A DNA stretch of 36,225 bases from Gemmatimonadota bacterium. GTDB lineage: Bacteria > Gemmatimonadota > Gemmatimonadetes > Longimicrobiales > RSA9. The stretch's first letter is position 1. Each line of letters opens with the position of its first letter. Both the position numbers and the translations under genes were made by a program. The stretch is from the NCBI GenBank assembly GCA_019347975.1, contig JAHWKI010000008.1, forward strand, positions 1 to 36,225, read 5' to 3'. Below, in pieces: positions 11,897 to 34,949 of the stretch. The notes below the pieces were generated by a model. That model was not told the origin of the DNA. It did no database searches and worked only from the letters and a program-made list of their open reading frames with translations.

Positions 11897-12814
11897 TCAA
11901 TCCCTCGCGGGGGCGGAATCGGCCGCCTCGCCGCGGGGGTTACAGCGGACGACTGAAATGGTCGCGGGCACGCGTCCGCCGGCCTCGCCGGTGAGGACGA
12001 GGCGGCCATCGGTCATGAAATCCACGCCTTCTCCGAGGGGCTGTGCGGGGCCGGAAAAGTCTGCCTGTGCCACGTGCCGGAGGGTATCGGCCCCGGCGTC
12101 GAAGAAGCGGAGCCCCGCGTAGGTCCGGAGGACGACGGTGCGACCGTCCGGCGAAGCGGCGGCGGCGGTGACCTGGGCGGAGACCGACGTCGGCGGGGGC
12201 GCGAGCCCCTGGACCCGCTCGAGGGAGCGGGCGGGGGCTGCGGTGAAGGGCGGTGGGATCCTGTAGAGCTCGATGCTCCGGGTCCTTCCCTTGCTCACCA
12301 GATGGATGCCACGGTCGGTGACGTACAGGGCCTCGGCGTCCTGGCCACCGTCCGGATAGGAAGCCTGGAGGCGCACCGCGGGGCGGCTCACCGAATCGGG
12401 GCCGGGCTCCGGCTCCGGGACGATGAATACGACGACGTTCTGCCGCCTCTCCCGGTTGTCGCCGATATCGCCGATGAAGAGGCAGTCCACGCCGGAACCC
12501 GGCGAACAGGGGGCGACCGCGATGTCCTCCCAGTCGCGGTTCGTCGCGCCCCGGACGCGTACGCGGCCGATGACCGTCCCGGTGGAGTCCAGGGCGAAGA
12601 CCGCCGAATCGCCTTCCGAGTCGTTGTGGGTCCAGAAGATCCCCGGGTGAGCACGGCTCGCCGCGACGCCGCTGGTCTCCCTCACTTCGGCGGGCAGCTC
12701 GGCCCACGGCACCGGCGCCTCGCAGGCCCCGGTCACATGGACGGCTTCGTCTTCCGCTGCGTCGGGCGCGCAGGCCGCGGCGAGCGCGACCAGGAGGAGG
12801 GCCCCGGCTCTCAC
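11897..12814 (-). CDS. Beta-propeller lipoprotein (phytase-like/SdiA-regulated-type fold), unknown function
   Basis: A 305-residue protein beginning VRAGALLLVALAAAC, a lipoprotein signal with Cys15 as the likely lipidated residue. The mature region has propeller-like strands and the recurring pattern ETSGVAASRAHPGIFWTHND, DWEDIAVAPC, LFIGDIGDNRERR and EALYVTD, with several acidic residues. These resemble proteins annotated as esterase-like activity of phytase or SdiA-regulated domains. Substrate is unknown. The start is GTG 12814, whose GTGA overlaps the TGA of the mscS gene, so the longer reading frame to 13027 is not used. It ends an operon with a channel and another lipoprotein. Confidence 0.8.
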   Translation of the reverse strand: MRAGALLLVALAAACAPDAAEDEAVHVTGACEAPVPWAELPAEVRETSGVAASRAHPGIFWTHNDSEGDSAVFALDSTGTVIGRVRVRGATNRDWEDIAVAPCSPGSGVDCLFIGDIGDNRERRQNVVVFIVPEPEPGPDSVSRPAVRLQASYPDGGQDAEALYVTDRGIHLVSKGRTRSIELYRIPPPFTAAPARSLERVQGLAPPPTSVSAQVTAAAASPDGRTVVLRTYAGLRFFDAGADTLRHVAQADFSGPAQPLGEGVDFMTDGRLVLTGEAGGRVPATISVVRCNPRGEAADSAPARD

Positions 12815-16128: not shown

Positions 16129-16757
16129 ACCGCCACCGCCAGCCCGTCGCGCATCGGGATGATGGTTCCGGTGAGCGCCGGGTGCTCCGCCAGTCGGCGA
16201 TTGAACTCCCGCACGCCGCGCGTCCCCTCCTCCTCGGGCTCCTCATCCAGGACCCGCCCGCTCCAGAAGGCGTTGTCCGCGATCACCAGCCCTCCCGGAC
16301 GCAGGAGCCGCAACGCGTGCTCCAGATACGCGGGGTAGCCCTCCTTGTCCGCGTCGATGAAGACGACGTCGAAAGGCTCCGCCGCGTCCAGCGCCTCCAT
16401 GGTGGCCGCGGCCTTGCCGGTCCGGACCTCCACCCGGTCCTGAAGCCCGGCCCGCGCGACGAACTCCCGGGCGAAAGCCGCATGCCCCGGGTCGATCTCG
16501 AGGGTGAGGAGCCGGCCGTCGGCCGGGAGAGCACGGGCCATCCAGATCGCGCTGTAGCCGCCCAGCGTCCCCACTTCCAGCACGCGGCCGGCGCCCACGG
16601 CGCGGAGCAGCACCTGGAGGAGGCGGCCCTGCTCCGCCGATATGTGGATCTCGGGGAGCCCGCGCCGGGAGATCTCGTACCGGAGCTCCTCCAGGACCTC
16701 GTCCTCGGTGGCGAACAGGCGCCGGACGTACCCCGAAAGAAGGACCTCGTCGCTCAC
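16110..16757 (-). CDS. Class I SAM-dependent O-methyltransferase
   Basis: A 215-residue methyltransferase of the caffeoyl-CoA/catechol O-methyltransferase type. Motif I is LEVGTLGGYSAIW (about residues 60-72), followed by TLEIDPGHA for the ribose, and DVVFIDADKEGYPAYL with the metal- and SAM-contacting Asp residues. The later VIADNAFWSG also matches the family. Divalent metal use is therefore likely. The start is GTG 16757, with its GTGA overlapping the stop of the aminotransferase gene. The in-frame extension to 18056 is antisense readthrough of that gene and not part of the protein. The stop at 16110 lies inside the kinase gene on the other strand. The acceptor substrate is unknown. Confidence 0.9.
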   Translation of the reverse strand: MSDEVLLSGYVRRLFATEDEVLEELRYEISRRGLPEIHISAEQGRLLQVLLRAVGAGRVLEVGTLGGYSAIWMARALPADGRLLTLEIDPGHAAFAREFVARAGLQDRVEVRTGKAAATMEALDAAEPFDVVFIDADKEGYPAYLEHALRLLRPGGLVIADNAFWSGRVLDEEPEEEGTRGVREFNRRLAEHPALTGTIIPMRDGLAVAVYTPAS

Positions 16758-22748: not shown

Positions 22749-24062
22749 TCAGGCGTCGCGGCTGCTCCGGGAACGCTCGAGCTGGACTTCGGGAGAGCCG
22801 GTGATGAGGCGGATTCCGCGCTGATAGGTGAGCCAGGCCCACGCCCACTGGATCATGACGAGGATGCGGTTGCGGAAGCCGATGAGCTTGAGGATGTGGA
22901 CGAAGACCCAGACCAGCCAGGCGAGGTAGCCGCCGAAACGGACGCGGCCGAAATCGGCGACGGCTGCGGCACGTCCTATGGTGGCCAGGTTGCCCCAGAA
23001 CCGGTAGCGGAAGGGCTCGCGGGGGCGACGGGCGAGGTCGTAGCGGATCATACGGCCGGCGTGGCGGCCGGACTGGATGGCGACCTGCGCGACGCCGGGC
23101 AGGGGTTCCCCGTCCTGCTGGATGTGAGCCAGGTCGCCGAGCACGAAGACCTCGGGGTGCCGGGGGACGGAGCAGTCGCTCTCCACGAGGACCCGTCCGC
23201 TACGGTCGAGGGGTGCATCGAGGCTGGCCGCGAGGGGCGAAGCGGCGACACCGGCGGCCCAGTAGACGTTTCCGGCGGGAATGACCTCTTCGCCGATGTG
23301 GACGCCCTCCCCGATATCGGTGACGATGGCGCCGGTGCGTACCTCGACGCCGAGCCGTTCGAGCTGGCGCCGTGCGCTGGCGGAGAGATCGGGGGGGTAG
23401 CCGGGGAGTACGCGGTCGGCGCCCTCCACGAGGATTACGCGGGCGGAAGCGGTGTCGATGAAGCGGAAGTCACGGGGGATGGACTGGCGCGCGATCTCGA
23501 CCATGGACCCGGCGAGCTCGACGCCGGTGGGCCCGGCGCCGACGATGACGAAGGTGAGGAGGCGCCGCCGCGACGCGGGATCAGCCTCCCTCTCGGCGGC
23601 TTCGAACGCCAGGAGGAAGCGGCGGCGGATCTCGAGGGCGTCATCCACGGTCTTGAGGCCGGGAGCCCGGCCGGCCCACTCTTCGTGGCCGAAGTAGGCG
23701 TGGGTGACGCCGGTTGCGACGACGAGGTAGTCGTATTCGAGCCGGCCATCCTTGAGCTCGACGACGCGGTTCTCCACGTCCACGCCGATCGCCTCGCCGA
23801 GCCATACCTGGACGTTCCTGACCCGCTTGAGGATGGACCGGATGGGGCTGGCGATGTCGGCGGGAGAAAGGGACGCGGTCGCGACCTGGTAGAGCAGGGG
23901 CTGAAAGAGATGATAGTTGCGGCGGTCGACGAGGGTGACATCGACCGGGGCGCGTCTGAGGGCCCGTGCGCAATGGAGACCAGCGAATCCGCCGCCGAGG
24001 ATGACGACGTGTGGACGGGCGACGGTGCGGTCGGGCGGAGGCTGGAGAGGCTCGCTGCTCAC
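22749..24062 (-). CDS. NAD(P)/FAD-dependent oxidoreductase, type II NADH dehydrogenase-like (NDH-2)
   Basis: A 437-residue flavoprotein. The FAD site is GGGFAG (about residues 23-28), after HVVIL, with HLFQPLLYQVATASL next to it. A second dinucleotide fold, FVIVGAGPTGVELAG, binds NADH. FVLGDLAHI near the end completes the FAD site. The final helices (YLAWLVWVFVHILKLIGF and ILVMIQWAWAWLTY) attach the enzyme to the inner membrane face. The enzyme oxidises NADH and passes electrons to quinone without proton pumping. GTG 24062 is chosen: its GTGA overlaps the DUF309 stop. The in-frame stretch upstream to 24140 has no family match. Confidence 0.93.
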   Translation of the reverse strand: MSSEPLQPPPDRTVARPHVVILGGGFAGLHCARALRRAPVDVTLVDRRNYHLFQPLLYQVATASLSPADIASPIRSILKRVRNVQVWLGEAIGVDVENRVVELKDGRLEYDYLVVATGVTHAYFGHEEWAGRAPGLKTVDDALEIRRRFLLAFEAAEREADPASRRRLLTFVIVGAGPTGVELAGSMVEIARQSIPRDFRFIDTASARVILVEGADRVLPGYPPDLSASARRQLERLGVEVRTGAIVTDIGEGVHIGEEVIPAGNVYWAAGVAASPLAASLDAPLDRSGRVLVESDCSVPRHPEVFVLGDLAHIQQDGEPLPGVAQVAIQSGRHAGRMIRYDLARRPREPFRYRFWGNLATIGRAAAVADFGRVRFGGYLAWLVWVFVHILKLIGFRNRILVMIQWAWAWLTYQRGIRLITGSPEVQLERSRSSRDA

Positions 24063-25742: not shown

Positions 25743-28700
25743 ATGACCTGCCGTCCCGCGCGAATCTCCGCCCCGTTCGTCTTCGTCCTGCTCGCCACCG
25801 CCTGCGCCAGCGCGGGTGCCGCCCCTCCGCTGAGCGGGCAGGAGCAACGGTCGCCGAGGGCGGTGGCGGTGGACAGCGTCTTCCACGGGCTGGATGCGCG
25901 GCCGATCGGGCCTCCGGGCACGTCCGGCCGGATCGCGGCGCTGGACGCCTGGCGGGGCGAACCCCGGGTGATCTGGGCCGGGGCGGCCACCGGCGGCCTG
26001 TGGAAGTCGGCAGACGCAGGGCTGACCTGGGCGCCCGTGACCGACTCCCTGCCAGTGAACTCCATCGGGGCCGTTTCCGTGTCGCCGTCCGCGCCCCACG
26101 TGGTGTGGGTGGGGACCGGGGAGGCGAACGCGCGGAACAGCATGGGTGTCGGCCGAGGGGTGTGGCGGACGGAGGATGGCGGACGCACGTGGACCCACCT
26201 GGGACTGGAGAGGTCGGAGCACATCGAGGCGATCGTGGTCGACCCATCCGACGCCGATGTGGCGCTGGTCAGCGCGATGGGGCCGGCGTGGAGCGATGGC
26301 GATCAGCGCGGCGTGTTCAAGACGACGGACGGCGGCCGGAGCTGGCGGAAGGTGCTGTACGTCGATGAGCGGACCGGTGCGTTCGAGCTGGTCATGGATC
26401 CGTCCAATCCGCGTCACCTCCTGGCCTCCACCTGGGAGTTCCGCCGGTGGCCGTGGTTCTTCAGCAGCGGCGGCCCGGGGAGCGGGCTATGGCAGAGCTG
26501 GGATGGTGGAGAGACGTGGCGTCGCCTGACGGAGGAGGAGGGGCTCCCGGAGGGTGAGCTGGGCCGCATCGGCCTGGCCTTCTCCGAGAGCGATCCGTCC
26601 GTGGCGTACGCGCTGGTGGAGGCGGAGAAGAGCGCGCTGCTCCGTTCGGATGATGGCGGTGTGACGTGGCGTGCGGTGAACACCGAGACCAACGTGAACG
26701 ACCGTGCGTTCTACTACAGCCGCGTCTACGTGGATCCCCGGAACGAGAACCGCGTCTACCGTGTGAGCGGCACGCTGTCGATGAGCGAGGACGGGGGCCG
26801 TACGTTCGAGGAGATCGCGCCGTGGTCGAGCGTGCACGTCGACCACCACGCATTCTGGGCACACCCGGACGGACGGACGATCATCACGGGCAACGACGGC
26901 GGCGTCTACATCAGCCACGACCGTGGCGGCTCCTGGTACTTCGTGGAGAACCTGCCGGTCGCGCAGTTCTATCACCTGGCGGTGGACACGGCCACGCCGT
27001 TCAACGTCTACGGCGGACTGCAGGACAACGGATCGTGGGTGGGGCCGAGCCAGGTGTGGGAGACGCCCTCGTTCGCCGGCTCCGCCATCGTGGCGCACCA
27101 CTGGAAGGAGATCGGGTTCGGCGACGGGTTCGCCGCCATTCCGGATCCCACCGAGCCGGGGACCGGCTACAGCATGAGCCAGGGCGGCAACCTCCGGCGG
27201 TTCGACCTGAACACCGGGGAGGAGCGGACGGTGCGACCGCCGGTGCCGGATACGGCGACGGAGCTGCGCTTCAACTGGAACGCGGGGATCGCGCTGGACC
27301 CGTTCGACCCGCGCGTGGTCTATTACGGCAGCCAGTTCGTGCATCGCAGCCCGGACCGGGGCGAGAGCTGGGAGATCATCAGCCCGGACCTGACCACGAA
27401 CGACCCTGAAAAGCAGCGTCAGCACGAGTCCGGTGGTCTGACGCTGGACGTCACGGCGGCTGAAAACCACACCACGATCCTCACGATCGCGCCGTCCCCG
27501 GTCGAGCCGGGGGTGATCTGGGTCGGGACGGATGACGGGAACGTCCAGATCACCCGCGACGGCGGGCGCAGCTGGATGAACGTGGTGGACCGGATTCCCG
27601 GCGTGCCGGACGCGACCTGGGTCCCGCACATCGAGGCGTCGAAGCACGCGCCGGGGACCGCTTACGTCGTCTTCGACAACCATCGTCGAGGCGACTGGAC
27701 GCCATACGTCTACCGCACGGCGGATTACGGGCGAAGCTGGCGGGCGCTCTCACCGGGACAGATCGATGGCTACATCCACGTCATCGAGGAGGATCCGGTC
27801 GAGCCGGGGCTTCTCTTCCTCGGCACCGAGTTCGGTCTCTACGTGTCGCCGGACGCCGGGCGGAGCTGGTGGAAGTGGACCCACGGCGAGTACCCGGCCG
27901 GCGCCCCGACGCGGGCGCTGGTGGTGCACCCCCGGGATCACGATCTGGCCATCGGAACCCACGGCCGGGGCGCGTGGATCATCGACGACATCCGCCCGGT
28001 CCGCGCCATGGCCCGGGACGCGCGGATCGCCGCGTCGCCGCTCTACCTGTTCGACGTGCCGGAGGCGATCCAGCACACCCGCGGCATGAGCGGCCCGTTC
28101 TACTTCCCCGGCGACACCAAATACCAGGGCCCGAACCGCCCGTATGGCGCGCTGATCTCGTACTACGTCGGCGCTCGGGATGACTCCGCCGAGGCGAAGA
28201 TCGAGATCATCGAGGCCGACTCGGTCATCAGGACGCTGGACGGGCCGGCGAAGGCGGGGGTGAACCGCGTCGTATGGGGGCTCGAGCGCAGGGGATTCCC
28301 GCGCCCGGACGCGGCGCCCGAGGACCCCGAGCCGGCGGGCCCGGAGGCGCTCCCGGGCACGTATGGCGTGCGAGTGACGGTGGGAGACCACGTCTCCGAG
28401 GGAACGGTGAGCGTTCGAGCGGACCCGCGGGCCACGCGGTCGGTGGCGGCGATGCGGCAGAACCTGGAGACGGTGATGCGCGGGCAGTCCCGCCAATCGG
28501 AGCTCCGCGCGGCGATCTCCCGGCTGGACGCGACCAGCGAGACGCTGTCGCTCTACGAGAAGGCGTTGCGCCGCTGGGAGCCGGCCGACTCGGCGCAGAA
28601 GGCCGAGCTGCTGGAGCTCACGGACAGCGTGCAGGCGAAGGCTTCGGCTCTGCTGGACCGGCTACGCCTCCCGCCCGACACGAAGGGCATCGTGCGGAAC

Positions 28701-28907
28701 AACACGGTCACGGCGCGGCTCGGTCAGGCGCTCGGCCGGGCGACATCGACGCCAGGCGCGCCGGCCGCCGGCCGGCTCCAGGAGCTGGAATGGGCACTGG
28801 GGGCGGCCGAGTCCATGCTGGCCGAGGTCGAGGCGTTCTACGCGGCGGAGCTGCCCGCGTACCGCCGCGCTCTCGAGGCCGCGGGCTTCGACCCGCTAGG
28901 GGGATGA
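25743..28907 (+). CDS. Large BNR/VPS10-sortilin-like beta-propeller lipoprotein
   Basis: A 1054-residue exported protein with a signal of lipoprotein type (MTCRPARISAPFVFVLLATAC; Cys21). It is made of repeated propeller strands with Asp-box/BNR motifs: KSADAGLTWAPV, RTEDGGRTWTHL, KTTDGGRSWRKV, QSWDGGETWRRL, RSDDGGVTWRAV, MSEDGGRTFEEI, ISHDRGGSWYFV, RSPDRGESWEII, ITRDGGRSWMNV, RTADYGRSWRAL and VSPDAGRSWWKW. These follow the S-x-D-x-G-x-T-W pattern seen in sialidases and VPS10 domains. The propeller(s) end near residue 760. The C-terminal 290 residues contain a beta-sandwich-like segment and a helical region. Proteins of this kind are abundant in Gemmatimonadota and are often called glycosyl hydrolases, although catalytic residues are not evident. 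Confidence 0.88.
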   Translation: MTCRPARISAPFVFVLLATACASAGAAPPLSGQEQRSPRAVAVDSVFHGLDARPIGPPGTSGRIAALDAWRGEPRVIWAGAATGGLWKSADAGLTWAPVTDSLPVNSIGAVSVSPSAPHVVWVGTGEANARNSMGVGRGVWRTEDGGRTWTHLGLERSEHIEAIVVDPSDADVALVSAMGPAWSDGDQRGVFKTTDGGRSWRKVLYVDERTGAFELVMDPSNPRHLLASTWEFRRWPWFFSSGGPGSGLWQSWDGGETWRRLTEEEGLPEGELGRIGLAFSESDPSVAYALVEAEKSALLRSDDGGVTWRAVNTETNVNDRAFYYSRVYVDPRNENRVYRVSGTLSMSEDGGRTFEEIAPWSSVHVDHHAFWAHPDGRTIITGNDGGVYISHDRGGSWYFVENLPVAQFYHLAVDTATPFNVYGGLQDNGSWVGPSQVWETPSFAGSAIVAHHWKEIGFGDGFAAIPDPTEPGTGYSMSQGGNLRRFDLNTGEERTVRPPVPDTATELRFNWNAGIALDPFDPRVVYYGSQFVHRSPDRGESWEIISPDLTTNDPEKQRQHESGGLTLDVTAAENHTTILTIAPSPVEPGVIWVGTDDGNVQITRDGGRSWMNVVDRIPGVPDATWVPHIEASKHAPGTAYVVFDNHRRGDWTPYVYRTADYGRSWRALSPGQIDGYIHVIEEDPVEPGLLFLGTEFGLYVSPDAGRSWWKWTHGEYPAGAPTRALVVHPRDHDLAIGTHGRGAWIIDDIRPVRAMARDARIAASPLYLFDVPEAIQHTRGMSGPFYFPGDTKYQGPNRPYGALISYYVGARDDSAEAKIEIIEADSVIRTLDGPAKAGVNRVVWGLERRGFPRPDAAPEDPEPAGPEALPGTYGVRVTVGDHVSEGTVSVRADPRATRSVAAMRQNLETVMRGQSRQSELRAAISRLDATSETLSLYEKALRRWEPADSAQKAELLELTDSVQAKASALLDRLRLPPDTKGIVRNNTVTARLGQALGRATSTPGAPAAGRLQELEWALGAAESMLAEVEAFYAAELPAYRRALEAAGFDPLGG

Positions 28908-30380: not shown

Positions 30381-30598
30381 GGCGGTCCTTCCGGCGTCGT
30401 GGCAGGGGCGCGCGGAGCGGGCCCGTGCCCGCGTGCCGGAAATCAAGCGGCGAGTCCATGGGCGGGCAAGGGGCCGCGACCCCGCGAAAGCGTTCGGGAC
30501 ATTCTGCACGGCTCCTCACCCGGTCACCTTCCCGGCCGTGGCACCGCCGTTGCACCCCCTGCGGCGGCGGGGCGGGAAATCCGAACATGGGAGGCGAC

Positions 30599-31222
30599 AT
30601 GAGACTCGCGATGAAGGTCGTGCCGATGCTGGCGCTCGGGCTGGCGACGGGTGCCTGCAGCGGTGGCGGGCTCGCCGACGTGCTGGGCGGCGTCCTCGGC
30701 GGGGGCGGCCAGGGCCAGGCGCAGAGCGGCACGGTGACGGTGGAGGTGCAGGAGGTCCGTCAGCAGCAGCAACAGATCGTCGTGCTCACCCAGGACGGGA
30801 AGACCGGACCGATCCTGTACGACGCGAACACCCAGGTGATCTACAACAACGAGAACTATCCCGTGCAGGCGCTGGAGTACGGGGATGTGGTGGACATGCG
30901 GGTGCAGCAGGTCCAGCAGGGCTACTACACGGATCTGATCCAGGTGTGCACGCCCGTTCAGGAGCGGCAGGGAGGGACGCGCCGATCGGCGGCCCCGGAC
31001 GTCTACCGGGTAGAGGGCACGATCGGTCAGATCGACGTTTCCCGGAGCATGTTCACGCTGAACATGACGCAGGGTGGCACCGTTCCCATCTACCTGCCGT
31101 CGAACGCGACGACGGCCATGCGGGAGCGGCTGCGGGAGTACCGGGAGGGCGACTATGTGCGAGTGGAGATGAGGGCGCTCGATCAGGAGAGCGCGGAGCT
31201 GGTACGCTGGGGCTGGTCCTGA
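30599..31222 (+). CDS. Lipoprotein with two DUF5666-like beta domains
   Basis: A 207-residue protein with a probable lipoprotein signal (MRLAMKVVPMLALGLATGAC; Cys20). After a Gly-rich linker there are two similar beta domains of about 70 residues. The first (about 40-115) contains VTVEVQEVRQQQQQIVVLT, VIYNNENYPV and GDVVDMRVQQ. The second (about 135-205) contains YRVEGTIGQIDVSRSMFTL, PIYLPSNAT and GDYVRVEMRAL. Both follow the strand order of DUF5666. GGGAGG lies four bases before ATG 30599. A structural envelope role is a guess. It is divergent from the zinc-ribbon gene. Confidence 0.7.
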   Translation: MRLAMKVVPMLALGLATGACSGGGLADVLGGVLGGGGQGQAQSGTVTVEVQEVRQQQQQIVVLTQDGKTGPILYDANTQVIYNNENYPVQALEYGDVVDMRVQQVQQGYYTDLIQVCTPVQERQGGTRRSAAPDVYRVEGTIGQIDVSRSMFTLNMTQGGTVPIYLPSNATTAMRERLREYREGDYVRVEMRALDQESAELVRWGWS

Positions 31223-31270: not shown

Positions 31271-32491
31271 ATGTCCGAGCCCCATCCGACTGACCCGGCC
31301 GCGAAGCGAGGCGGGACGTCACCCCAGCGTAGCGTCGCCGAGGTAGTGCAGCGACGCTTCACGTGGACGGCTCTCTGGGGAGCCCGGCGTCTGCGCCAGG
31401 GTCTCCGGCGCGCCGGCGTCCCGGTCCCGCGCGTGCACACGTTCCGGCGGCGGTCTCCCATAGGGACGCCGCCGGGAACTCTCATCTCGCACCCGGAAGC
31501 GGCGCCGCCCTCCATTCGCGTGATCGGTTTCTCGGCGGACGGCTTCGAGGAGATGGACGCGACCGTGGAGGGGCTGGCGGGGTTCAGGGCGCGATGGCCC
31601 GTGGTCTGGGTGGACGTCGGAGGGGTCGGCCATGCCGAATCGGTGGCGTCGATCGGCGCCGAGTTCGCGCTCCACCGGCTGGCGCTGGAGGATGTCATGA
31701 ACGTGCACCAGCGGCCGAAGGTGGAGGAGTACGCGAGCTATCTGTTCGCCGTCGCGCGGATGGCGTCGCTGGGCGACCGGGTGGACACGGAGCAGATCAG
31801 CCTCTTCCTCGGCCCCAGCTGGGTCCTGACGTTCCAGGAGGCGCAGGGCGACTGCTGGGATCCCGTTCGCGACCGGCTCCGGCTGGGGAAGGGGAAGATC
31901 CGGACGGGCGGGGCGGACTACCTGTTCTACGCGCTGCTGGACGCCATCATCGACAACTTCTACCCCCTGCTGGAGGAGTTCGGCGCGCGGCTGGAGCAGC
32001 TGGAGGAGGCGGTGATCGACGACCCGCACGAGAGCCTGGTCGGCGTGATCCACGGGGCCCGACGGGACCTGCTCGCCCTGCGCCACGCCCTGTGGCCGAT
32101 GCGTGAGGCCGTCGGCCAGCTGTATCGCGACCCGTCCAAGTACATCACCGACGACAGCCGGATCTACCTCCGGGACGCCTACGACCACACGATCCAGGTG
32201 ATCGACCTGCTGGAGAATTTCCGGGAGATGGCCAGCGGGCTGCTGGATGTGTACCTGTCCAGCGTCAGCCATCGAATGAACGAAGTGATGAAGGTCCTCA
32301 CCATCATCGCCACCATCTTCATTCCGCTGACGTTCATCGCCGGGGTGTACGGCATGAATTTCGATACGTCAGTGAGCCGGTGGAACATGCCGGAGCTACA
32401 CTGGGAATACGGATACCCGGTGGTGATGGGGATCATGCTGGCGATCGGACTGTCGCTGCTGGGCTACTTCAGATGGAAACGGTGGATATGA
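31271..32491 (+). CDS. corA: CorA-family magnesium/cobalt transporter
   Basis: A 406-residue member of the CorA family, which imports Mg2+ as a funnel-shaped pentamer. The C-terminal two helices are VLTIIATIFIPLTFIAGVYG (about 340-360) and PVVMGIMLAIGLSLLGYF. The first ends in the GMN motif (Gly361-Met-Asn363) that forms the selectivity filter. The cytosolic domain has the usual FLGPSWVLTFQE and long stalk helix (about 280-340). The first 85 residues, rich in Arg and Pro, extend beyond the usual family start. The message may be leaderless. The stop overlaps the start of the BNR lipoprotein gene as ATGA. Confidence 0.93.
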   Translation: MSEPHPTDPAAKRGGTSPQRSVAEVVQRRFTWTALWGARRLRQGLRRAGVPVPRVHTFRRRSPIGTPPGTLISHPEAAPPSIRVIGFSADGFEEMDATVEGLAGFRARWPVVWVDVGGVGHAESVASIGAEFALHRLALEDVMNVHQRPKVEEYASYLFAVARMASLGDRVDTEQISLFLGPSWVLTFQEAQGDCWDPVRDRLRLGKGKIRTGGADYLFYALLDAIIDNFYPLLEEFGARLEQLEEAVIDDPHESLVGVIHGARRDLLALRHALWPMREAVGQLYRDPSKYITDDSRIYLRDAYDHTIQVIDLLENFREMASGLLDVYLSSVSHRMNEVMKVLTIIATIFIPLTFIAGVYGMNFDTSVSRWNMPELHWEYGYPVVMGIMLAIGLSLLGYFRWKRWI

Positions 32492-33762
32492 CGACGCGCT
32501 TCCCACACCTTCTCGCCGCGCTGTGCCTCCTCGTGCTCCCTGCCTGCGGGCCCGATGACGCGGATGGCGGACAGGTGGCCGCGGCGGACAGCGCCGCGCC
32601 GCCCGTGCAGATCGAGCCTCTCGCGTCTCCGGCGGGGCCAGGCAGCGCGGAGCCGGAGCTCGCCGCCGGTCCTGACGGGTTCTACCTGAGCTGGCTGGAG
32701 CGGACCGGCCCCGATCGGCACGCGCTGCGCTTCGCGCGGCTGGGGCCCGACGGCTGGACCGAGCCCCGCACGGTCATGGAGCGATCGGGTTTGTTCGTGA
32801 ACTGGGCCGACTTCCCCTCGCTGCTGGTGCTCGAGGACGGCACGCTGGTGGCGCACTGGCTCGAGAAGAGCGGAAGCGGCACGTACGCCTACGACGTCCG
32901 GGCGGCCGTCTCCACCGATGGCGGGCGGACGTGGGGGGACGACGTGATCCCGCACACCGACGGGCTCCAGGCCGAGCACGGCTTCGTCTCGCTCTTCCCC
33001 GTGGATGGCCGCGCGGGCGCGGTCTGGCTGGATGGGCGGGAGACGGTGAGCGGGGACCCCATGACGCTGCGCTTCGCGACGCTAGGGGTGGACGGGGCAT
33101 CCCCGGATGAGCTGCTGGACGAGTCGGTCTGCGACTGCTGCCAGACGAGCGCGGCGATCGCGGCGGACGGGCCGGTGGTCGTCTACCGGGACCGGACGGA
33201 GGACGAGATCCGCGACATCTACGCGGTTCGACGCGTGGACGGGCAGTGGACCGAGCCGCGGCCGGTGCACGAGGACGGGTGGGTGATCAGCGCCTGTCCG
33301 GTGAACGGCCCCGCCGTGGCGGCGGACGGCCGCCGGGTGGTCGTCGCCTGGTTCACCGGGGCCCCGAGCGCCCGCGTCCAGGTCGCGTTCTCCGACGACG
33401 CGGGCGCCACGTTCGGGCCGCCGGTCCGCGTCGACGATGGCGAGGCTCAGGGCCGGGTCGATGTGGTGCTCCTCGACGACGGGACGGCGCTGGTCTCGTG
33501 GCTCGAGCGCGCGGGCGGCGGCGGCCAGGCCGAGATCCGGCTCCGGCGAGTCTCGCCCTCCGGCGCCGGTGCCGTCCTGCGGCTGGCCGACACCTCTCCG
33601 GAGCGCGCGAGCGGCTTCCCGAGGATGCTGAGACGGGGCGACGAGCTGCTGTTCGCGTGGACGCAGGCGGGCGATCCGTCGCAGGTGCGGACGGCGATCG
33701 GCCGGCTCACGGGCGACGGGGCGCCGCGGGCGGCGGGAGCCGCCGTAGGGCCGGCGTCGTGA
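32488..33762 (+). CDS. BNR/sialidase-like propeller lipoprotein with CxCC motif
   Basis: A 424-residue lipoprotein (MTTRFPHLLAALCLLVLPAC; lipobox L-P-A-C, Cys20). The mature part is a propeller of sialidase type. Asp-box-like blocks include VSTDGGRTWGDD and FSDDAGATFGPP, and further strands are LVAHWLEKSG and VVVYRDRTEDEIRDIY. A conserved cysteine cluster, ESVCDCCQTSAA (about 210-215), stands in the centre. The full set of sialidase catalytic residues is not evident. ATG 32488 overlaps corA's stop as ATGA, and its own stop overlaps the TlpA start as GTGA. Co-translation with a thioredoxin and a Mg/Co transporter suggests a redox- or metal-sensitive substrate. Confidence 0.83.
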   Translation: MTTRFPHLLAALCLLVLPACGPDDADGGQVAAADSAAPPVQIEPLASPAGPGSAEPELAAGPDGFYLSWLERTGPDRHALRFARLGPDGWTEPRTVMERSGLFVNWADFPSLLVLEDGTLVAHWLEKSGSGTYAYDVRAAVSTDGGRTWGDDVIPHTDGLQAEHGFVSLFPVDGRAGAVWLDGRETVSGDPMTLRFATLGVDGASPDELLDESVCDCCQTSAAIAADGPVVVYRDRTEDEIRDIYAVRRVDGQWTEPRPVHEDGWVISACPVNGPAVAADGRRVVVAWFTGAPSARVQVAFSDDAGATFGPPVRVDDGEAQGRVDVVLLDDGTALVSWLERAGGGGQAEIRLRRVSPSGAGAVLRLADTSPERASGFPRMLRRGDELLFAWTQAGDPSQVRTAIGRLTGDGAPRAAGAAVGPAS

Positions 33763-34274
33763 GGGTTCCGGCGCCGGCCGCGGTATTCGGGGTGGTGCTC
33801 GCCCTGGCCGCGTGCGGTAACGGCGGCGACGGGAATGATGCGGAGGGGACGCTCAGCCCCGAGGCCCCGGCTTTCGCCGCCGTGACGCTCGAGGGAGACA
33901 GCGTACGGCTCGCCGACCTGCAGGGCGCTCCGGTGCTCCTGAACGTGTGGGCGACCTGGTGCGCGCCCTGTCGGGAGGAGATCCCGGAGCTCCAGGCTCT
34001 CCACGAGACGTTCGGCCCCCGGGGGCTGCGCGTGATCGGCGTGACCGTCGACTCGCGTTCGGCGGCCGAGGACGTCCGGCGATTCATGGATCAGTTCGGC
34101 ATGACGTACGAGATCTGGTGGGACCCGGACCAGACGTCGGTCTCCGCGTTCGAGGCGATGGGTGTGCCCCTCACCGTCCTGATCGGCCCCGACGGGCGGA
34201 TCCGCTGGCGCCACATGGGGGCGGTGCCACCCGGCGACCCCGAGCTGAGAGAAGCGGTCGAGGCGCTCCTCTAG
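33759..34274 (+). CDS. TlpA-family thioredoxin-like lipoprotein
   Basis: A 171-residue protein. It has a lipoprotein signal (VRVPAPAAVFGVVLALAAC; Cys19) and a thioredoxin fold of the TlpA/ResA type. The active site is WC68APC71 in LLNVWATWCAPC. GLRVIGVTVDS and the cis-proline MGVPLTVLIGPDG follow. The protein would face the periplasm and reduce disulfides, typically in cytochrome c assembly or a specific partner. GTG 33759 overlaps the BNR gene's stop. The cysteine-rich BNR protein made just upstream is a candidate substrate, which is inference. Its stop codon shares the palindrome CTAG with the convergent hydrolase gene. Confidence 0.92.
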   Translation: MRVPAPAAVFGVVLALAACGNGGDGNDAEGTLSPEAPAFAAVTLEGDSVRLADLQGAPVLLNVWATWCAPCREEIPELQALHETFGPRGLRVIGVTVDSRSAAEDVRRFMDQFGMTYEIWWDPDQTSVSAFEAMGVPLTVLIGPDGRIRWRHMGAVPPGDPELREAVEALL

Positions 34275-34936
34275 GGCCAGTGTACGGCGAGGACCTCCGG
34301 CTCCACGCGGTGACCGCCGGGGAACTCGATCCTCCGCGTCTCCACGCCGAGCCGCTCGAGCAGCGGAAGCCCGGCGGCGGCGCGCTCCCGAGCCCAGCGA
34401 TCCGCGTCCCCCACGACGAAGGTGACGATCGTGCGGGCGAGGGCCGCGGCGGCCTGGCTCTGGTCGAGGTCCGCGGCCAGGCCCCCGCCCCAGAGGATCA
34501 GCTCGTCGGGGGGCGCGCCGCCGAGGACGGCCCACCGGGAGGCGGTCTCGGCTCCCTGGGAGAACCCGAGGACGACGAGCCGGTCGGCGGGGGTGGCGAT
34601 GTGGTCACGCAACCGGTCCAGATAGTCGACGTAGTCGCGGATCTCGGCGTCGCGGTCGTGCCGCGTCATCCACGCGGCGCCGACGCGGGATCCGGGGCCA
34701 TGGGGGCCCGCCGCCTCCCGCTCGATGTAGAACCGGTTCAGGGCTTCGGGCGCGATCACCGCACGCCTCCCATCCGAGATCCCCGGCAGGTCGGAGAATC
34801 GGTGGATGAATCGCCCGGCCAGCTGGCGGTAGCCGTGGAGAACGAACCAAGGCTCCGGGGCGGTGGCGGGGTCGCCGCACACCGCGTATCGGGCCGTGCG
34901 GGAGATGCGGAGGGAGTGCTCGCGGATGCGTGACAT
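34271..34936 (-). CDS. Alpha/beta hydrolase (phospholipase/carboxylesterase type)
   Basis: A 221-residue esterase-like hydrolase. The nucleophile elbow is GFSQG with Ser126. The general acid is Asp177 in VVGDADRW and the catalytic base is His209 in FPGGHRV. The oxyanion strand is FVLHGYRQLAG. The order of motifs fits the acyl-protein thioesterase/carboxylesterase family. ATG 34936 lacks a ribosome site but follows a -10-like TATCTT by seven bases. The 610-residue frame to 36103 is antisense to the aminotransferase beyond this start. The gene starts 18 bases from the divergent class V aminotransferase gene. Confidence 0.85.
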   Translation of the reverse strand: MSRIREHSLRISRTARYAVCGDPATAPEPWFVLHGYRQLAGRFIHRFSDLPGISDGRRAVIAPEALNRFYIEREAAGPHGPGSRVGAAWMTRHDRDAEIRDYVDYLDRLRDHIATPADRLVVLGFSQGAETASRWAVLGGAPPDELILWGGGLAADLDQSQAAAALARTIVTFVVGDADRWARERAAAGLPLLERLGVETRRIEFPGGHRVEPEVLAVHWP

Positions 34937-34943
34937 GGCCGAC

Positions 34944-34949
34944 AAGATA
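34944..34949 (-). promoter_or_regulatory. Candidate -10 element for leaderless hydrolase message
   Basis: On the minus strand TATCTT (34944-34949) is followed by seven bases and ATG 34936. No -35 is evident. It sits in the 18-base gap between two divergent starts. Confidence 0.4.

Follow-up and report, generated by a model that had tools for sequence, protein, structure and literature searches.

The window analysed here (36,225 nt of a Gemmatimonadota contig) contains three consecutive open reading frames on the + strand, whose coordinates we confirmed. They encode CorA, a CxCC protein predicted to fold as a beta-propeller and a TlpA-like thioredoxin, and the last two carry lipoprotein signals (Table 1). 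The sorting of such lipoproteins may or may not bring the propeller to the surface, where the sequence-only reading had placed it. The sequence-only reading described the three genes as joined by ATGA and GTGA overlaps and the positions of the ORFs agree with this, with a 4-nt ATGA between corA and the propeller gene and a 4-nt GTGA between the propeller and TlpA genes. At least three further same-strand gene pairs in the window overlap by 4 nt (12811-12814, 16754-16757 and 24059-24062). Since overlaps of this length are commonplace in this genome, they indicate likely co-translation of corA, propeller and TlpA and not a shared function, and by themselves they are weak evidence for a functional unit. 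A small lipoprotein gene without Pfam match (30587-31222), located on the same strand 48 nt 5' of corA, possibly begins the operon. On the other side, a gene for an FSH1-type serine hydrolase (34271-34945) lies on the opposite strand and overlaps the TlpA gene tail-to-tail by 4 nt (34271-34274). A second, unrelated propeller protein of 1054 aa with Sortilin-Vps10/BNR repeats is encoded upstream in the window (25743-28904).

Table 1 Features of the corA, propeller and TlpA genes (positions in the window)
Feature	Position	Strand	Evidence
corA, predicted Mg2+/Co2+ channel, standard TIGR00383 type	31271..32491	+	TIGR00383 score; alignment with T. maritima CorA 2bbj
Predicted CxCC beta-propeller lipoprotein ('sialidase'-like), 424 aa	32488..33762	+	lipobox; 118-member alignment; AlphaFold
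Propeller lipobox Cys20	32545..32547	+	LLVLPAC (lipobox LPAC)
Propeller His164	32977..32979	+	118/118 in CDCC family; mostly kept in CPCC family
Propeller CDCC motif, residues 215-218 (Cys215, Cys217, Cys218)	33130..33141	+	118/118 homologues; 13/13 CPCC paralogues
Propeller Cys270 (CPVNG), fourth invariant cysteine, predicted next blade	33295..33297	+	alignments; AlphaFold strand positions
TlpA/ResA-like thioredoxin lipoprotein, 171 aa, last operon gene	33759..34274	+	AhpC-TSA; ResA/TlpA structure matches
TlpA-partner lipobox Cys19 (LAAC)	33813..33815	+	conserved in 49/52 partners
TlpA-partner thioredoxin active site WCAPC	33957..33971	+	WATWCxxC in 52/52 partners

CorA and its place at the locus

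Judged by its sequence, CorA is an ordinary Mg2+/Co2+ channel. It matches the NCBIfam model TIGR00383 over its full length (315.7 bits, cut-off 200.75), its residues 62-406 align with Thermotoga maritima CorA (2bbj, E 3.7e-97) and its pore region contains the GMN motif, VYGMNFDTS aligning with YGMNF of the T. maritima protein. The extra basic N-terminus of 85 residues that had been singled out does exist but is shorter, the leader being about 61 residues longer than that of T. maritima CorA, with PPGTL of the window protein aligned with the canonical CorA N-terminus. Related CorAs have shorter leaders that are likewise basic, and in-frame alternative starts exist for the window CorA. The alignment, the basic leaders of the relatives and the alternative starts rule out the N-terminus as a special feature.

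The earlier reading went further and proposed a coupled trio in which the redox pair is linked with Mg/Co transport. In its favour, all three genes are joined by 4-nt overlaps in this genome, but overlaps of this kind are ordinary in the window. At none of the 80 loci with a homologous propeller, which span about eight phyla, did CorA adjoin it, and in 60 related genomes, about half of which encode CorA and most of which encode the propeller, none of 45 CorA matches lay within 30 kb of a propeller. The trio is therefore not conserved and corA occurs independently of the propeller in relatives. Together with the canonical character of CorA itself, this makes a functional operon tying CorA transport to the redox pair highly improbable, and we excluded CorA from the functional unit. 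Its position next to the pair looks accidental and corA is probably a lineage-specific neighbour. The propeller and TlpA genes, by contrast, are associated beyond chance (see below), and this part of the proposal was retained. In a single gammaproteobacterium, a protein of the CNNM/CorC type, which has a link with Mg/Co efflux, is encoded next to the propeller gene on the opposite strand (locus L070, 6366-7628).

The propeller family and its TlpA partner

The propeller protein scores 28.2 against Pfam BNR_2, below the gathering score of 31.4, and is likewise below the cut-off for BNR. It contains one clear Asp box, has no match to the DUF411 domain in Pfam and matches no NCBIfam family. On these scores we rejected a sialidase assignment. 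Its AlphaFold model (pLDDT 93.4, pTM 0.92) has the GH145 enzyme BT3686 as best whole-chain Foldseek match (TM 0.65), and sialidase and GH145 propellers are found with E values of 1e-8 to 1e-9, the identity to sialidases being 11-18%. We are confident from this model in the prediction of a beta-propeller fold, and its strand order indicates that the propeller is probably seven-bladed. The CDCC cluster noticed in the sequence-only reading was borne out at residues 215-218 of this predicted propeller. C215, C217, C218 and C270 are invariant in all 118 aligned homologues, as are several Arg, Asp and Glu, which may or may not correspond to the Arg triad, Tyr/Glu and Asp of sialidase catalysis. In the strand order of the model the motifs NWADFP, EHGF, CxCC, CPVNGP, GRV and SGFP each stand ahead of an inner strand in successive blades. 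This suggests that they form one central site in the classic propeller position, and by the same strand order the four cysteines would belong to a single site.

The downstream protein matches AhpC-TSA in Pfam (90.8 bits, cut-off 26, E 8.5e-26) and the solved structures of ResA and TlpA. Its partial matches to the ResA/TlpA/DsbE models of NCBIfam are all below cut-off, with a ResA equivalog score of 93.3 against the required 170. Because no equivalog cut-off was reached we class it as a TlpA-like thioredoxin only. Its active site reads WATWCAPC, and WATWCxxC together with P137 near the active site is found in 52 of 52 partners.

Propeller homologues were found in Gemmatimonadota, Acidobacteriota, Rhodothermota, Bacteroidota, Pseudomonadota, Planctomycetota, Zixibacteria and KSB1. 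They are also encoded on at least 64 plasmid records, most of them from Roseobacteraceae, and are annotated there as sialidase family protein. The contigs were scanned with six seeds, one of them a peptide containing CDCC, and the resulting set is biased toward the motif. However, 29 loci (L084-L112) came from a whole-protein search without a CxCC seed and carry the motif nonetheless, so that their CxCC is not a selection bias. Our literature search found no published study of this propeller family, including in copper loci.

A divergent subfamily from the same taxonomic order, with 31-41% identity, has CPCCRT in place of CDCC and keeps the four cysteines in 13 of 13 paralogues, with R184, R234, R242, D243 and, mostly, H164. 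In 12 loci (L154-L167, related genomes of that order) the CPCC-type propeller follows a TonB-dependent receptor of about 775 aa, with 46-58% identity between loci, and in five loci of the subfamily a TlpA then follows, giving a TonB receptor-propeller-thioredoxin operon. We considered the receptor as a copper receptor and rejected this because its best solved-structure match is PqqU/YncD instead.

Conservation and fusion of the propeller-TlpA pair

A TlpA gene directly 3' of the propeller gene and on the same strand was found at 52 loci (about 48 distinct after removal of identical rows), all of them in Gemmatimonadota and five of them of the CPCC subfamily. Of the 50 pairs encoded as separate genes, 43 overlap when the start codon nearest to the propeller stop is taken for TlpA; the overlap measures 4 nt in 29 of them and 1 nt in the other 14. 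On the propeller tree (n=132) the pairing requires 12 changes against 39.7 in shuffles, with none of 500 shuffles as low; near-copies inflate this result, and two fusions (L089 and L091) were counted as unpaired. The TlpA-paired propellers fall mostly in one Gemmatimonadota clade and the pairing had one main origin on this tree. In the two fusions, which come from genomes G055 (L089) and G054 (L091) of one genus and are probably one event, the propeller (CDCC) and TlpA (WCAPC) are in one open frame behind one lipoprotein signal. Outside Gemmatimonadota the propeller gene mostly lacks a TlpA neighbour, indicating that neither the fold nor the site requires a dedicated TlpA.

In all, the propeller and TlpA as a conserved functional pair are well supported. 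Of the redox partner pair put forward by the earlier reading, the partnership is thus upheld by adjacency, overlap, main origin and fusion, while reduction of the CxCC by TlpA is a matter of inference.

In a layout that recurs in Gemmatimonadota (L027, L029, L050, L055, L060 and others), the pair is surrounded by MlaE/MlaF/MlaD-type genes and a divergent gene (product of about 1030-1060 aa) on the propeller side, and by a gene for a protein of about 330-370 aa resembling alanine-racemase-type enzymes, then RidA, on the TlpA side.

Copper context and possible function

On Roseobacteraceae plasmids the propeller gene lies within or adjoins copper-resistance clusters at 6 of the 8 loci read, with multicopper oxidase, plastocyanin/azurin, TolC, CusA, a copper P-type ATPase, CopC and CopD as neighbours. 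In the other two loci, which are identical, truncated multicopper-oxidase fragments immediately precede the propeller gene, and a heavy-metal P-type ATPase is encoded close by. Heavy-metal P-type ATPases were found near 6 of 41 non-Gemmatimonadota loci, where 0.25 would be expected from their density in the same genomes (p ~3e-7, treating related loci as independent); since five of these six loci are from Acidobacteriota, they are not fully independent. We had expected a copper marker at every propeller homologue and this was not found. Some three quarters of the loci outside Gemmatimonadota have none in the flanks examined and several clades have unrelated neighbours, such as the carboxypeptidase-like protein, aromatic lyase and CNNM/CorC next to propellers of Flavobacteriaceae and several Gammaproteobacteria. 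A gene of roughly 470 aa found upstream of the propeller in several phyla was taken for TolC, an idea that proved wrong. The position of the CPCC subfamily behind a PqqU-like TonB receptor does not point to copper. Near members of the TlpA-paired clade, the window included, there are essentially no copper genes, and copper is consequently transferred to this clade by homology. Copper would thus be the leading but unproven candidate ligand, with the comparative evidence coming from outside the TlpA-paired clade.

We give about an even chance to a thiol pair in which TlpA reduces the four-cysteine centre of the propeller for a ligand, most likely Cu(I). The two proteins, the propeller lipoprotein and a dedicated TlpA/ResA-type thioredoxin lipoprotein, would both sit at the outer face of the inner membrane. 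The centre would consist of C215-x-C217-C218 and C270, with H164 and several arginines. TlpA would reduce disulfides among these cysteines and leave the centre free to bind its ligand, probably Cu(I). The role of the propeller would then be to bind periplasmic copper, to oxidise it, or to work as a thiol enzyme that depends on copper. CorA would share the transcript in this genome and stand outside the mechanism. The direction of electron flow, with TlpA as reductant, the choice of copper as ligand and the final reaction of the propeller are all inferred, the first by analogy. In Bradyrhizobium, TlpA reduces the cysteines that form the copper sites in ScoI and in CoxB (COX II) before metallation (PMC6696091), and in CopG a CxCC motif takes part in binding a tetranuclear Cu cluster (PMC7558416). 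By analogy with these precedents, the TlpA partner would keep the propeller centre reduced for Cu(I).

The propeller might instead be a thiol-based or copper-dependent small-molecule enzyme, for instance a thiol oxidase, whose active-site disulfide TlpA re-reduces at each turnover, copper handling not being its role. The invariant cysteines, arginines and histidine do resemble an active site, the arginines could bind an anionic substrate, Foldseek retrieves enzymes with sialidase- and GH145-type propellers as neighbours and SELENBP1 is a copper-dependent thiol oxidase (PMC10362175). We nevertheless consider this unlikely, since the TlpA-paired clade shows no recurrent neighbour specific to a substrate and the copper clusters elsewhere favour metal handling. 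Still less probable to us is an ordinary sialidase-like glycosidase in which the cysteines are structural, as disulfides or a zinc site, and disulfide repair of TlpA or DsbC-like type explains the pairing. The sialidase-type fold, the one clear Asp box and the weak BNR_2 match would fit such an enzyme, but the protein falls short of the Pfam cut-offs for BNR_2 and BNR and has no match in NCBIfam, an invariant CxCC plus one more cysteine is a rare form for structural disulfides and the plasmid and island context is one of copper and not of glycan use.

Returning to the proposed Cu(I) thiol pair, the Bradyrhizobium system resembles it in having a membrane-attached periplasmic thioredoxin of the same family and an exported partner (ScoI, CoxB) with copper-ligand cysteines (PMC6696091, PMC7558416). 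It differs in that here both partners are lipoproteins and the presumed client, which TlpA would reduce, is a propeller with CxCC and a fourth cysteine encoded by an adjoining or fused gene. CopG (DUF411) is likewise an exported protein with an invariant CxCC at copper-resistance loci (PMC7558416), but it has a thioredoxin-like domain where a propeller is predicted here, and the CxCC likeness would be convergent. The predicted propeller fold is shared, according to Foldseek, with sialidases (GH33) and GH145 BT3686, from which the protein differs by its 11-18% identity, its score below the BNR_2 cut-off and its copper rather than glycan context. To our knowledge the invariant cysteine centre is absent from the GH33 sialidase and GH145 families. 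SELENBP1/methanethiol oxidase and nitrous oxide reductase are copper proteins built on a propeller scaffold. Both have other ligand residues and we found no sequence similarity between them and the propeller.

It is possible, though we hold it for less than an even chance, that the CxCC propellers are a new class of extracytoplasmic Cu(I)-cluster proteins or copper-dependent thiol enzymes, which a TlpA encoded alongside them, and in some cases fused to them, matures or recycles, and that their CPCC sisters are the same behind a TonB receptor. Public records call the propeller a sialidase; its defining feature is the invariant four-cysteine centre, and should it prove to be a copper or thiol protein, it is misannotated in many soil and marine bacteria. 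The propeller and TlpA form an apparently unstudied pair of a thioredoxin with a dedicated cysteine-site client, here a propeller, and this would put a name to the client of one of the orphan TlpA-like proteins that are numerous in Gemmatimonadota. Under a copper or thiol function the fused propeller-TlpA proteins would offer a single-chain system for testing how a thioredoxin services a metal site. Human NHLRC2 also combines a thioredoxin-like domain and a beta-propeller in a single chain (PMC6107167), like the L089 and L091 proteins, but it is cytosolic, its propeller is of the NHL type and its domains are in the reverse order.
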